Assembly: GCF_000316685.1 (NCBI RefSeq)
Contig: NC_019680.1
Location: 2,985,407-3,049,406, forward strand
Direction of reading: 5' to 3'
DNA from: Synechococcus sp. PCC 6312
Lineage (GTDB): Bacteria > Cyanobacteriota > Cyanobacteriia > Thermosynechococcales > Thermosynechococcaceae
DNA: 64,000 nucleotides
Shown here: positions 8,100 to 31,425 of the stretch, in pieces
Position numbering within the stretch: position 1 is the first letter of the stretch
How the letters are laid out: each line of letters begins with the position of its first letter
Program-made: the position numbers and the translations under genes
Notes under the pieces: generated by a model
The model's input: only the letters and a program-made list of their open reading frames with translations
The model's database searches: none
What the model was told of the DNA's origin: nothing

Positions 8100-8312
8100 G
8101 AGTCATCACACAAGTAGGAAATACAATAGCAACAGGACAAGGAGTTATTATATTGCGAGCGTAATAATTTAAGTACATTAGGGGCAATTAAGGGGATAAA
8201 TCGCAAATGTTATGCTACCAGAGTAGGCGGAATCACCAACCGGATAAAGTGACAGGCTCCGACCGGCCTGGAACACCCCAGCTATTCCTTATCCCGACCT
8301 TCTAGATTATCT

Positions 8313-26494: not shown

Positions 26495-26812
26495 ATGAAT
26501 TACAAACACCTGAGCGTCACCACCATTTATTTGATTATTTTGAGTTTTATTGCTCCCACCCAGGCCGGGGAAACTCCCCTAACCCGATCAGAAACAAATC
26601 AGAACTGTTTTGGATGTCTTCAACAGCACCCAGGCCTGGCCTGGCAACGCACCGAGCTATTTTTTGGCCTCTCTCGCCCCAATGGTAGTCTGATTACCCC
26701 AGCCAAGTTCAAAGGTTTTTTAGACACTGAGGTTGCGCCCCGCTTCAAAAGTGGCTTTACTGTGATTCCGGCGGCTGGACAGTATCAAGACTCAACGGGC
26801 AATATTATTCAA
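26495..26812 (+). pseudogene. DUF3574 gene, 5' fragment
   Basis: First 106 codons of a DUF3574-type secreted protein. A signal peptide begins MNYKHLSVTTIYLIILSFIA, with probable cleavage after TQA. Cys residues follow in QNCFGC, then the family core WQRTELFFGLSRPNGSLI and FLDTEVAPRFKSGFTVIPA. The reading frame runs unchanged up to GNIIQ, where the transposon begins. Its remaining codons lie at 31282-31425 in the same frame. The frame continues into the element and stops at 26923, so a chimeric product could still be made. Confidence 0.85.
26805..26812. repeat. left target-site duplication TTATTCAA
   Basis: Identical to 31274-31281, immediately outside both ends of the 4.46-kb insertion. Eight bases is within the usual IS982 target-duplication range. 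Confidence 0.85.
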
Positions 26813-27028
26813 CCTGAGTTCGGGATAAGGAATTCCTCAAAAGCTTTATCAATTCTGACTTTTCTCAAATCTGAGCCGAGTCAAAAAATTAAAAATGAGC
26901 TTTCTTTTCGGGCGTACCACTGATTTGGGCTATTTTCGTGTGAAATCTGCGTAGTTCTGCCTAGCTTGAATCGCTCTAACTCCTTATCTGGTCTAATTTT
27001 CATGCATTTTGCTTAACCCGAACTGACG
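26813..27028. mobile_element. 216-bp deleted IS982-type element
   Basis: Begins with the same 20 bases as the IS at 30255 and ends TTGCTTAACCCGAACTGACG, one base different from the IS right end. The interior is unrelated to a transposase frame. It looks like a MITE-type derivative that supplies one boundary of the composite element. Confidence 0.75.
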
Positions 27029-27152
27029 TTAAATTAGGAAGATTGATCGGAAAAACCAAAAGTTTCTGAGCCTTGACTTTCATTTTTTAATTACACCCCG
27101 TAGTGACAGACACGAGTTCTGATATTATTGACCTTATTTTATTTGCCTCCCT

Positions 27153-28298
27153 ATGACGTCCAAGCATCCTTACTACCGCTTTGATGAGGCCTTAGAAGAA
27201 TATGGTTCGCAGGCGATACGATGTAAAGAGTTTCTTTTTAGAGGAGATCCTCTTGCCGATGAAGCGGTTTTAGCTTTAGCAAAGCTTTCTTCTGGTAAAG
27301 CAGTTAGAACGCTCAATAGCTTATTGAACGACGGCAGAGATTCCACACCAGATGCCCCAGATGCACTAAAAGCACTCTTTGATCAGTTGGAGAGCCTCCC
27401 GCTATGGGTAGACTGGGAGCGAATTGAGATAGGTAGCCAAACTATTCAAAGACTTTCCTTGCTCGTTGCTCCAGTACTAAGCTTATATTCTCTTCCTCTT
27501 ATGTATGCTTCTCCGGCAGGAACAAAACCCTTAGTCTTTACAGGCAACTTTGTGGATCGCGCTCCTCGACGATTGGCAGAGACCAGTCGCTTTGTACGGC
27601 TGACCTGCCAATCAGGTGGATTACGTAGGTTTAGTGAGGGCTTCAAGCTGAATGTGAAGGTTCGATTAATGCATGCTCAGGTACGCCGTCTGTTGCAGAG
27701 TTCGGGACAGTGGCATCGTGAAGAGATGGGAATACCCGTTAACCAATGCCATATGGCGGTTACGCTTATTTTACTCTCTTTGGGAGTTATTAAAGGATTA
27801 AGGGATCTAGGCGTGATCTTTACCCAAACGGAAGTAGAAGGTGTTTTGCTCCTTTGGGCCTATTCCGGCTACATCTCTGGCGTGGATCCAGAATTTTTGT
27901 GTACATCAGAAACCCAAGCTGAGAGTCTCTTACAATTATTACTGACCCAAGAAGGTTTTCCTAATGAAGACTCACGGTTGCTTGTACAAGCTCTACGGAC
28001 GATGCCTCTTCCGACGGAGTTAGCAGGTGCTCCTTGGTTTGACGACGTTGCGGCAACCTTATCTCGTTCTTTGTTGGGAGATCAGTTTGCAGATTCCCTC
28101 GAAATCCCTGCATCAGAATGGACTTGGGTTGTTCCCTTAATGCGTCCGATCTTTTCCATTTTTTCAGAAGCGCAGCGTTATGTACCAGGTATGGCAAATT
28201 TAGCGACCTCTGTAGGAACAAAAACTTGGGAGACGATGGAAAGTGCCCTTACTACGCGCTCTGAGCCTATCAAGTCCTCTACCCATACTTCGTCATGA
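27153..28298 (+). CDS. MpaB/Lcp-like oxygenase family protein
   Basis: A 381-residue member of the MpaB/latex-clearing (Lcp, DUF2236) superfamily, typically heme-b enzymes that oxidise hydrophobic substrates. Key features: FSEGFKLNVKVRLMHAQVRR with the candidate heme-ligand region at H174, then WHREEMGIPVNQCHMAVTLILLSLGV, the family's G-x-P-x-N-Q segment. The N-terminal third contains PLWVDWERI and a hydrophobic run around residues 100-125. No signal peptide. It is the first cargo gene of the composite transposon and overlaps the next gene by ATGA, so the products are probably made together. Substrate unknown. Confidence 0.75.
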   Translation: MTSKHPYYRFDEALEEYGSQAIRCKEFLFRGDPLADEAVLALAKLSSGKAVRTLNSLLNDGRDSTPDAPDALKALFDQLESLPLWVDWERIEIGSQTIQRLSLLVAPVLSLYSLPLMYASPAGTKPLVFTGNFVDRAPRRLAETSRFVRLTCQSGGLRRFSEGFKLNVKVRLMHAQVRRLLQSSGQWHREEMGIPVNQCHMAVTLILLSLGVIKGLRDLGVIFTQTEVEGVLLLWAYSGYISGVDPEFLCTSETQAESLLQLLLTQEGFPNEDSRLLVQALRTMPLPTELAGAPWFDDVAATLSRSLLGDQFADSLEIPASEWTWVVPLMRPIFSIFSEAQRYVPGMANLATSVGTKTWETMESALTTRSEPIKSSTHTSS

Positions 28299-29770
28299 AA
28301 AGCGAAACCTTAGCGTACCTCACGAGCGGCGATTGGCAAGCCCTTGAGTCAATCGCGATAAGAAAATTGTTTGCCACTGGAGAAAATATTATTGTGGAAG
28401 GACATTCTGTCCGCAATCTTTTTATCCTACGTCGGGGTTATGTTCAAGTAGAACGTGAATATCAAGGACAGGGTATTGCTCTTAGCCAATTGGGTGCGGG
28501 TGCTGTTTTTGGTGAGATGTCCTTGCTGGAGCAAACTGGAGCGAGTGCCTCTGTCACCGCCGCCTCTGAGGTGGAAGTGGACGTCATTGAAGAATTGTCT
28601 CTGCGTTCTTTGCTCAATTCTCTACCTGGCTTTTCATCTCGCTTTTATCAATCCTTAGCCGTAACACTGTCCCAACGGTTACGCAATGTCTCAGAGCAGC
28701 TTTCTCAGAGACATGACCAAAGCCAGCGCCCAACGCGCATTGGAAACATCAGCGAACGACAGATTCCACTCATCCTTGTTGATGCAGTAGAACAATTTAA
28801 GCAAACCATGACCCAGCTTGAGCAGCAAATTAAGCAACGGCAGGTCACGAGCATTCAAGCGCAAACTCAGACTAATGATGCCTGTAACCAGCTCATGAAC
28901 GCTCTCAGCCATCATAGTCAAGGAGAGGCTTTAATCGATTCGGCTTGGAGTAATTTGTTAGCCTTTCGAGACTTAGACCAACTAGAATCAGGCATCGGCG
29001 ACTATGTGTTCAGGGAACTGTTTCCTGTGATGATGCAGAGCGCATCTATCGCCTATTGCCATACTCGTCCCCGTGGCTTGATCGATGGCTACGAAACCAA
29101 CCAACTCATCTATGCCAATGAAGCAGAAGGGGATGGTTGGCTTGGTCCATTTATTGACGGTTGGTTTCTGTCAACACACTTTTGCCAAAGCCGACAGCAG
29201 GGGCGGCAACACCTTGCCCAACTCTTACAACACTATAGCCAACAACCTTCTACATCAATCCTTAGTCTGGGCAGTGGTACTGCATTTGAGTTGCTCGACG
29301 TGCTGCCCAAAATACCTTCGCTTCATGTAACCCTGATTGATCAAGACTTGGTCGCTCTGCATAAAACTAGGCAAGTAGCAGAAAAGCTGGGCTGTGCAGG
29401 TAGTATAACTCTGATCCAAAATGACGTATTACTATTAGCAAAAGGACAAGAAAAATTAACCTTGCCACCGCAAAAATTTATCTATAGTTTCGGCTTGCTT
29501 GACTATTTGACTGATGAGCAATTGATTTTGATCTTGCAATGGATCGCCACACAACTGGCAGAGCAAGGAACCGTACTACTAACCAATATCAGTCCTGAGC
29601 ATCCTGACCGATTACTGATTAAACATATTTTGGAGTGGTCTCCATACTATCGCACTTCGTCTGAGCTGAAGGAGTTTTTGGTATCAGCAGGGCTTAGTCC
29701 AATTCAACTTTCAGAAGTAAAAACGACAGGTATATCTTGGGTAATGGGCCGTCAAGAGAGTAGCGAGTAA
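28295..29770 (+). CDS. cyclic-nucleotide-binding domain fused to PhcB-like methyltransferase
   Basis: A 491-residue fusion. A Crp-type cyclic-nucleotide-binding fold spans about residues 20-135 (FILRRGYVQVER, GAVFGEMSLLE). A Gln-rich coiled coil lies at about 140-205. A class I SAM methyltransferase follows at about 215-491, with motif I SLGSGTA at 324-330 and the acidic residue after strand 2 in VTLIDQDL. The stretch RPRGLIDGYETNQLIYANEA before motif I resembles the PhcB family, which makes the 3-hydroxypalmitate methyl ester signal in Ralstonia. There is no HTH DNA-binding domain, so cNMP may control the enzyme directly. Start ATG overlaps the oxygenase stop (ATGA at 28295-28298). Confidence 0.72.
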   Translation: MKSETLAYLTSGDWQALESIAIRKLFATGENIIVEGHSVRNLFILRRGYVQVEREYQGQGIALSQLGAGAVFGEMSLLEQTGASASVTAASEVEVDVIEELSLRSLLNSLPGFSSRFYQSLAVTLSQRLRNVSEQLSQRHDQSQRPTRIGNISERQIPLILVDAVEQFKQTMTQLEQQIKQRQVTSIQAQTQTNDACNQLMNALSHHSQGEALIDSAWSNLLAFRDLDQLESGIGDYVFRELFPVMMQSASIAYCHTRPRGLIDGYETNQLIYANEAEGDGWLGPFIDGWFLSTHFCQSRQQGRQHLAQLLQHYSQQPSTSILSLGSGTAFELLDVLPKIPSLHVTLIDQDLVALHKTRQVAEKLGCAGSITLIQNDVLLLAKGQEKLTLPPQKFIYSFGLLDYLTDEQLILILQWIATQLAEQGTVLLTNISPEHPDRLLIKHILEWSPYYRTSSELKEFLVSAGLSPIQLSEVKTTGISWVMGRQESSE

Positions 29771-29933
29771 ATCTTGTAAGAATTTTATGTCTCAAGCGTT
29801 ATATGACGTTAAAGTAATTACTTTAGAGTAAGGGGTTCAGCATTAAGTCTTGCCAGCTCCAATTCATAAAACAATGATTTTATTTACTTACAGCCCCTCA
29901 CCTCACATGATTGGGGTATGGCAACAATCCTAG

Positions 29934-30253
29934 TAATTAGGTATCACATCTCCTGAAATGCCTGTCTGTAAACGATTCTAGCCCACGAAAATTCCAAAAA
30001 GTTTAGACCTCAGAGAATTTTTTCAACCGGAAGGCTGTAAAAAGGTTCACTAAAGTAAGCAAAGTTGCTCTCAGATGGACTACCTGACTCCTATCTGAGT
30101 TTAAAACTTAGGATTTTGAAGATTTATGACTCCATTGTTGATGGCTTAGCCATCAAAACTGAGCATTTATGACGTATATGGTGCTCAAAAGGGAAAAAAT
30201 GTGCCTTAAAAGGCTTATCTCATAACTGTTTCAGGAGATATGATACCTAATTA
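29934..30253. mobile_element. MITE-like element with 25-bp terminal inverted repeats
   Basis: Left end 29934-29958 and right end 30229-30253 are inverted copies differing at one base (TAATTAGGTATC near the outer end, CTCCTGAAA inward). The 320 bp between carry no ORF, but a small hairpin TTGATGGC-TTA-GCCATCAA lies inside. It abuts the IS copy (one base apart) and differs from it, so it is a second kind of element inside the composite. Confidence 0.7.
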
Positions 30254-30254
30254 A

Positions 30255-31273
30255 CCTGAGTTCGGGATAAGGAAGTGGCTGTAAAGTAGGCAAGCAGGGC
30301 ATTAGAAGAAAGAGAGACAGGTAAACTAAGCAAAAACCATACCCCATCTCTCGATATGTCTAGCCTAGAAGCCCTATTTTGCTCTGTGGATGATTTTTGT
30401 AAAGTCTTTATTCTTACCTGGCGCAATCAGCAACTTCCGGGTCAAATAAAACAGCGAAACCGTCTCCGTAGCTTGACATTGAGCGAACAGATGACGATTG
30501 TGATTGCTTTCCATCAAAGTCATTACCGTAGTTTCAAGCATTTTTATCTCGACTATGTTTGTGTTTATTGGGCAGATGCATTTCCAAAACGTCCGAGCTA
30601 CCACCGTTTTGTGGAATGGATGCCAGGGTTAATCATTCCACTGTGTGTGTACCTCAAAACCTTGTTTGGAGCCTGCACGGGGATTAGCTTTATCGATGCC
30701 ACCAGTTTGAGAGTCTGCCATAATCGCCGTATCCCGAGCCATCGAGTTTTCCAGGGAATCGCAGCTAGAGGCAAAACCTCCGTGGATTGGTTTTATGGCT
30801 TTAAGCTTCACCTAGTAGTCAATGACCAAGGTGAATTGTTAAATATCCACGTTACACCAGGAAATACCGATGACCGTCAACCAGTCCCAGAGCTACTCCG
30901 TTCCGTGTGCTACGCACGACCTTTGGTCTATGGTAAGGTGTTTGCGGATAGAGGGTATGTTTCAAAACCGTTAGCCCAAGAGCTATTCGAGCGGTTTAAC
31001 ATTCAATTTTTTGCCAAGCCTCGACGCAATATGTAGAGCTTTGCTCGTCCGTAGGAAAACTATCTGATGGCTCTGATGGATAAACTTCTAGCCCGAAAAC
31101 GAGCCATTATTGAATCGATTATTGACCAGCTTAAAAACATCTCACAGATAGAGCACTCTCGACATCGAAGCCCCCTTAATTTCTGTGTGAATCTCATCTG
31201 TGGACTGATTGCCTATGCTCATCAACCCAAGAAACCAGCTATTGCTCTCTAAGTTGCTTATCCCGAACTGACG
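30255..31273 (+). mobile_element. IS982-family insertion sequence, 1,019 bp
   Basis: Full-length copy with terminal inverted repeats CCTGAGTTCGGGATAAG and CTTATCCCGAACTGACG. It encodes one transposase that fills most of its length, but two stops interrupt it. It provides the right boundary of the composite transposon. Confidence 0.82.
30356..31252 (+). pseudogene. IS982-family transposase, interrupted by an in-frame 21-nt insert
   Basis: DDE transposase. D114 lies in FIDATSLRVCHN, D198 in FADRGYVS, and the catalytic E in [15 protein letters not shown]. The first frame ends KPRRNM with TAG at 31034; the rest continues in the same frame from about 31055 as [19 protein letters not shown]. Between them 31034-31054 encodes stop-SFARP-stop, which looks like a 21-nt insert absent from related enzymes. 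Without it the protein would be near 290 residues, normal for IS982. As read it lacks the catalytic E, so this copy should be inactive unless both amber stops are read through. Confidence 0.85.
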
Positions 31274-31281
31274 TTATTCAA
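31274..31281. repeat. right target-site duplication TTATTCAA
   Basis: Matches 26805-26812 exactly. It marks the right junction of the composite transposon and lies in the DUF3574 reading frame. Confidence 0.85.
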
Positions 31282-31425
31282 GAAGAAGCTCAAATTCTGA
31301 TCATTTTCCACCCCGTTAATGACCTTAACCACCAGGCCATTGAGGCTATCCGCACCACCTACAAAATCAAGTTTCAACAAGAATCCGTCATCCGAGTTGA
31401 TCAACAAACCTGTGTTTCCTTCTAA
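31282..31425 (+). pseudogene. DUF3574 gene, 3' fragment
   Basis: Last 47 codons and stop of the gene begun at 26495, without a start of its own. The translation EEAQILIIFHPVNDLNHQAI continues the DUF3574 core and ends RVDQQTCVSF, with a late Cys. Joined to the 5' piece it gives a complete 153-residue protein, so the insertion is recent enough that neither half has decayed. Confidence 0.85.

Follow-up and report, generated by a model that had tools for sequence, protein, structure and literature searches.

A cargo unit with IS982-type ends interrupts a DUF3574 gene in Synechococcus sp. PCC 6312

The window analysed here, a stretch of 64,000 nucleotides of contig NC_019680.1 of Synechococcus sp. 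PCC 6312, contains a DUF3574 gene split by a unit of 4463 bp, in which two cargo genes and a 320-bp element lie between a short transposase-less element (left arm) and a full-length insertion sequence of the IS982 family (right arm). The features are, in order:

26495-26812, + strand: 5' half of the DUF3574 gene, 106 codons (fused ORF 26447-26923 matches PF12098 with 60.1 bits; the frame continues at 31282)
26806-26811, no strand: left copy of the target duplication TATTCA, 6 bp (flank comparison; AC-end rule, PMC7335449)
26812-27029, + strand: left arm, a 218-bp MITE-like element with both IS982 ends and no transposase (end comparison; own copy only in 24 genomes)
27116-27152, + strand: upstream stretch common to the window and genome G524, GTTCTGATATTATT (DNA comparison with G524)
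27153-28298, + strand: cargo gene 1, encoding a 381-aa putative haem oxygenase of the MpaB/Lcp family (PF09995, 65.5 bits against a cut-off of 23)
28295-29770, + strand: cargo gene 2, 491 aa, with N-terminal cyclic-nucleotide-binding and C-terminal class I methyltransferase domains (Pfam profiles)
29934-30253, no strand: MITE-like element of another kind, 320 bp (25-bp inverted ends, 96% complementary; fold z -5.5)
30254-31274, + strand: right arm, a full-length IS982-family element of 1021 bp (transposase profile, alignment with siblings, ends)
30356-31252, + strand: IS982 transposase gene, interrupted by two in-frame TAG codons (31034-31036 and 31052-31054)
30907-30928, + strand: insert B, 22-nt double mini-hairpin core, GTGC-TAC-GCAC-GACC-TTT-GGTC (net 21 nt longer than siblings; frame open)
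31036-31057, + strand: insert A, 22-nt double mini-hairpin core, GAGC-TTT-GCTC-GTCC-GTA-GGAA (net 21 nt longer than siblings)
31275-31280, no strand: right copy of the target duplication TATTCA, 6 bp (flank comparison)
31282-31425, + strand: 3' half of the DUF3574 gene, 47 codons and stop (joined frame; homologue alignment)

The octamer TTATTCAA is present twice, at 26805-26812 and 31274-31281, and the outer ends of the unit are inverted copies, (A)CCTGAGTTCGGGATAAG and (A)CGTCAGTTCGGGATAAG. As the first-pass annotation of this DNA had stated, joining 26812 to 31282 restores an open frame of 153 codons (153 aa) from the ATG at 26495; among joins shifted by -3 to +3 nucleotides the frame is kept by -3, 0 and +3 only, and the homologues at loci L062-L068, one per genome, all align across the join (7/7) and are gap-free at that point. 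The restored protein matches 8 of 58 genomes including the host's own, where it exists as two halves only, and the homologues share only 33-43% identity with it. The insertion into the DUF3574 gene is thus real and well delimited, and the proposal that the whole unit was inserted as one event agrees with the restored frame, with the homologues that span the join and with the matching outer flanks. The host is without an intact DUF3574 copy and some relatives have one: open-frame homologues are present in seven genomes among the 57 besides the host's, in answer to the possibility that an intact gene might never be found in the group, and no genome searched has the cargo at this position in the absence of IS ends. 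A true empty site did not come up, because the relatives searched included no other genome of the host's genus.

The duplication had been given as 8 bp and the unit as 26813-31273, and both figures needed correction. The family review describes the AC ends of IS982 elements as conserved and their direct repeats as variable in length (PMC7335449); by this rule and by comparison with sibling elements the duplication is 6 bp, TATTCA, and the unit with its AC..GT ends extends from 26812 to 31274. The sibling set was obtained by scanning 23 loci in the relatives, from which 16 elements with both ends were kept and seven one-end loci were dropped; several of the 16 are near-identical copies from one genome, and their descent is not independent. 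AC or GT was present at 31 of the 32 sibling ends, the exception being one end of L088, and duplications of 6-7 bp flank six of the 16 elements. Flank comparison gave no target duplication in the remaining ten (L003, L004, L077-L081, L087, L091 and L095), in which recombination between copies or decay may have intervened. In L083 the right end is followed by A and not by T, which shows that the outer A/T pair is no constant extension of the ends. ISNsp1 of Nostoc, a member of the family, is listed in the review with 1028 bp and a direct repeat of 6 (PMC7335449).

As a chance control, mismatched flank pairs were compared, and since 7 of 240 such pairs match over at least 5 bp, the TATTCA duplication alone would be expected by chance in only about 3% of cases; added to the restored frame and to the homologues aligned across the join, it makes strong evidence of insertion. 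Flank comparison revealed no matching flanks of 3 bp or more for the left arm alone or for the right arm alone. Neither arm alone being flanked by a duplication, the two are therefore not independent arrivals at the 26812/31274 site, and the pattern of a duplication at the outer ends and none at the inner ends is that of a composite transposon. The unit is present in one copy in its own genome (3.72 Mb, two contigs searched).

The right arm begins and ends with ACCTGAG..CTGACGT, and its AC ends and length of about 1 kb are those of the IS982 family. Its transposase scores 180 bits with the profile NF033520 (cut-off 130), measured on the 226 aa encoded upstream of the first TAG, and shares 60-63% protein identity with siblings where the alignment spans at least 267 residues; this score and the sequence of the unit uphold the earlier reading of mutually inverted outer ends of IS982 type. 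The inversion is limited to the outer ends, as both arms are in direct orientation and have in common only ends of about 20 bp, with no clear homology beyond. As in other IS982 family insertion sequences, the right arm has a length of 1021 bp, AC ends, a DDE transposase and a 6-bp duplication, whereas here the transposase is broken and the IS forms one arm of a cargo unit.

No other copy of the left arm, nor any homologue beyond its ends, was found in 24 genomes including the host's own. Short elements with IS982 ends are nonetheless a known kind, because a 212-bp element with ends of the left-arm kind (L095, no duplication) exists in the relative G017, and a published MITE of Cardinium, circa 240 bp long and derived from IS982, occurs many times over together with intact copies of its parent IS (PMC9769881). 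From what is described there, the Cardinium MITE resembles the left arm in being short, with IS982 inverted ends and no transposase, while the left arm differs in being a single copy and the arm of a cargo unit. A search of the own genome for the IS982-end pattern with up to two mismatches gave nine matches, four of which are the ends of the arms, against four in the reversed control, and for the match at window positions 8285-8300 (one mismatch) no partner end was seen when the surroundings were read by eye.

The description of the unit as a composite transposon can therefore be kept in part. The outer IS982 ends, the cargo and the single duplication agree with it; the left arm, 218 bp long and transposase-less, does not, as it is not an IS copy and the unit lacks two copies of the same IS. 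Like composite transposons, it encloses cargo between IS-type ends, is flanked by one outer duplication and split a gene in one event, but one arm is MITE-like and no intact transposase is left. Judged from its sequence, the unit would work like a composite transposon of an asymmetric form, outside the strict two-IS definition. The accompanying statement that simple insertions are the rule for IS982 is in line with the family review, in the main text of which the term "composite" is absent (PMC7335449), and needs to be qualified for IS195 of the same family, which has been tabulated among ISs associated with putative composite transposons (PMC7471000).

The 320-bp element, placed between the cargo and the right IS982, is unrelated to the IS982 ends, and its own inverted ends begin TAATTAGGTATCA. 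Among 39 genomes it is full-length in the own genome only, in a single copy; no family was found for it, and contig C45 of the relative G010 holds a short element with similar ends.

The two cargo genes overlap by 4 bp. The product of the first scores above the gathering threshold of MPAB_Lcp_cat (PF09995) and matches the rubber oxygenase structures 5o1m and 5o1l with E values of 4e-12 and 5e-12, and its haem-site residues Arg140, Thr144 and His174 align with Arg164, Thr168 and His198 of LcpK30 (5o1m; columns counted by hand), as would be expected of the LcpK30/MpaB family. These three are described as crucial active-site residues of LcpK30, with His198 as the proximal haem ligand (PMC5522427). 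Unlike LcpK30, cargo gene 1 has Gly123 in the column of Glu148 and Glu143 in that of Lys167 (also hand-counted). The product is therefore likely a haem oxygenase, and because Gly replaces Glu148, the residue that marks the rubber-cleaving Lcp enzymes, and Glu replaces Lys167, rubber cleavage is unlikely. The second product matches PF00027 (52.5 bits), PF13847 (29.6 bits) and PF12147 (27.8 bits), all above their cut-offs, and from their domains the pair may oxidise and methylate some substrate under cyclic-nucleotide control. A promoter scan found 6 candidates against 6.9 expected.

A heptamer, CCAGGCC/GGCCTGG, had also been said to be absent inside the unit and common on both sides. This was confirmed: the motif occurs 203 times in the 64 kb and not once in the unit, where 15.2 occurrences are expected from the outside density (Poisson P 2e-7), and at least 8 were counted in each of 507 overlapping outside stretches of unit length. 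Ten second-order Markov sequences contained 14-34 copies, so that the motif is about nine times commoner in the window, and CCAGGCC/GGCCTGG is a HIP-like motif of this genome. HIP1 itself (GCGATCGC) occurs once in the window, and the main text of the HIP paper does not contain the CCAGGCC/GGCCTGG strings (PMC4390886). In tetranucleotide composition the cargo's distance from the background is equalled or exceeded by 3 of 107 outside stretches, and this distance alone is only suggestive of a foreign origin. With the host motif absent and enzyme domains recognised by Pfam, the reading of the unit as carrying foreign, catalytic cargo stands.

Among 39 genomes of relatives the cargo MpaB was found by sequence in the own genome only, and among 386 genomes of the phylum in four, own included, the other three matching at 28-38% over part of the query. 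The PF09995 family as a whole is present in 66 of 388 genomes of the class, own included. The 29 best other PF09995 loci were compared with the cargo by tblastn, weaker places yielding no locus, and among these best 29 the genome G524 (locus L154), which belongs to another cyanobacterial family, has both cargo genes in the same order, with 86.6% and 84.1% protein identity and dN/dS of 0.106 and 0.138, respectively. Silent changes exceed replacement changes between the two copies, and the cargo frames in the window are open. DNA similarity is confined to 27116-29762, i.e., the pair plus 37 bp upstream. The pair of G524, at 8122-10750 of L154, has a different setting, with neighbours that we take to be ordinary-looking chromosomal genes from their ORFs, and no IS982 ends were found near it in 19.9 kb with up to three mismatches. 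IS982 is therefore not the only possible carrier of the pair.

The HIP1 octamer is present 35 times in the 17.3 kb around the G524 pair and is absent from its 2.6 kb, where about 5.3 sites are expected (Poisson about 0.005), and GC content is 45.8% in the pair vs. 41.2% around it. Because both copies are without the motif of their host, the pair looks as if it had been acquired in both genomes. Other relatives are distant: the methyltransferase has one in G106 with 34-37% identity, beside which no MpaB match was present in the 4.4-kb locus, and a profile search of genome contigs built on an MpaB alignment gave five loci at 27-29%, its single peptide pattern being one that would exclude the close relative in G524 found by Pfam. 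Plasmids and phages were considered as sources and set aside. MpaB matched 31 plasmid records, with 26-32% identity among the 20 matches listed, and 2 phage records (30.5%); the methyltransferase matched 5 plasmid records, none over 80% of the query, and gave no match in viral contigs, and a DNA search of plasmid records with the cargo gave no matches.

Alignment of the right arm with 13 siblings (L086 reads N in part) revealed two net additions of 21 nt in the transposase gene. Insert A is the source of both TAG codons, at 31034 and 31052, and positions 120-154 of the PF13612 profile, the last part of the DDE domain, lie 3' of them. An uninterrupted transposase, which is a trait of active members and is unneeded for assignment to the IS982 family, is thus lacking, and PF13612 has a single match in the own genome, the window transposase with its two TAG codons. 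With the only IS982 transposase of the genome interrupted, the unit is probably immobile. Comparable inserts are found in G001, from a different genus of the host's family; its IS982 copies L087 and L088 have in common two 24-nt inserts at two other positions, each with a 22-nt core and TA on each side. In the alignment the IS982 transposase genes of two genera thus hold four such inserts, each at a position of its own; the 32-nt addition in the transposase gene of sibling L006 is of a different make.

A search pattern made from insert A matched 5 places in the own genome (the one in the window included) and 9 in G001, against none in either for the reversed control. In total 10 of 24 genomes match, and the pattern is uninformative beyond these two because the other 22 give 9 matches against 5 in the control. 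The pattern from insert B, with three mismatches allowed, matched three places in the own genome, the window's included, and none in the other 23 genomes, with one match of the control in 24 genomes; this likeness to host copies weakly suggests that the transposase was damaged in the host's own lineage. TA flanks on both sides were present in all 8 copies read among the nine A-pattern matches of G001 and in none of the 8 read in the own genome (two in the window and six others), and a TA rule therefore applies to G001 alone. Double mini-hairpins with at least 7 of 8 pairs are not enriched in the window (25, vs. 21-42 in ten Markov controls), and perfect ones number 4 vs. 0-3; because there is no general hairpin enrichment, the inserts were called from the sibling alignment and not from structure counts. 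The copies read elsewhere in the own and G001 genomes are at loci L110-L121. The small dispersed repeats of cyanobacteria treated by Elhai and colleagues in 2008 are reportedly about 20-odd nt long, of paired structure and also located inside transposons. The 22-nt inserts are similar to these repeats in size and pairing.

We consider it very likely that a single IS982-driven transposition brought the cargo unit into the DUF3574 gene, where it was then probably stranded. The two-gene cargo would first have come to sit with the transposase-less element with IS982 ends to its left and a full-length IS982 to its right; the IS982 transposase would then have acted on the outermost ends, the left one contributed by the transposase-less element and the right one by the IS, and the segment would have moved as one unit into the gene with 6 bp duplicated. 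Later, 21-nt inserts of the double-hairpin kind may have broken the transposase and fixed the unit in place, the damage presumably following the arrival. The left arm is counter-evidence to this, being transposase-less and without a homologue beyond its ends, as are the ten siblings that lack a duplication, the low identity of the DUF3574 homologues and the G524 pair with no IS982 ends. Since the transposase gene lies in the right arm only, the right IS982 might also have mobilised the neighbouring DNA alone, the left element's end serving as a surrogate end and nothing but a target of the enzyme, and mobilisation of adjacent DNA through surrogate ends has been described for ISEcp1. We regard this as unlikely: with inner and outer IS982 ends over 218 bp the left arm looks like a mobile element of its own, and the idea overlaps with the single transposition of the whole unit, the difference being mainly one of history.

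It is quite unlikely that the unit was assembled on site in steps, the 218-bp element arriving first with TATTCA and a circle of cargo plus IS982, with one IS copy, later recombining at the right ends and displacing the right flank outward. The direct arms, whose right ends share about 20 bp plus the next three bases TTA, would suit such a crossing over; however, about 23 bp is very short for homologous recombination, the arms have no clear homology apart from their ends, and a single transposition accounts for all junctions in one event. Chance, with two IS982-type insertions that have nothing to do with each other lying near foreign DNA and the outer repeat a coincidence, is very improbable. 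Siblings are often found in similar T...A targets, and mismatched flank pairs match over at least 5 bp in 7 of 240, but chance would also have to restore a conserved gene exactly in frame, and neither arm alone is flanked by a duplication.

Whole-unit transposition, as preferred here, offers an anatomically clear example of cargo other than drug resistance being moved by IS982-type ends, with a transposase-less element as one arm, and the 21-nt inserts in the transposase gene are a likely route to fixation of such a unit. No prior description of it was found in the open-licence literature on IS982 composites or PCC 6312 transposons, which does not prove that there is none. More interesting than the insertion itself is the possibility of a portable module in two families. 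The oxygenase-methyltransferase pair is uncharacterised and apparently selected, and would travel between cyanobacteria. We tentatively suggest that it may be a two-gene module that changes carriers between cyanobacterial families (in the window an IS982/MITE unit, in G524 another carrier or none that is visible), and that such units may become stranded by 22-nt double-hairpin elements inserting repeatedly in IS982 transposase genes. As a minor observation, a 15-bp tandem duplication lies directly upstream of the first cargo gene in G524.
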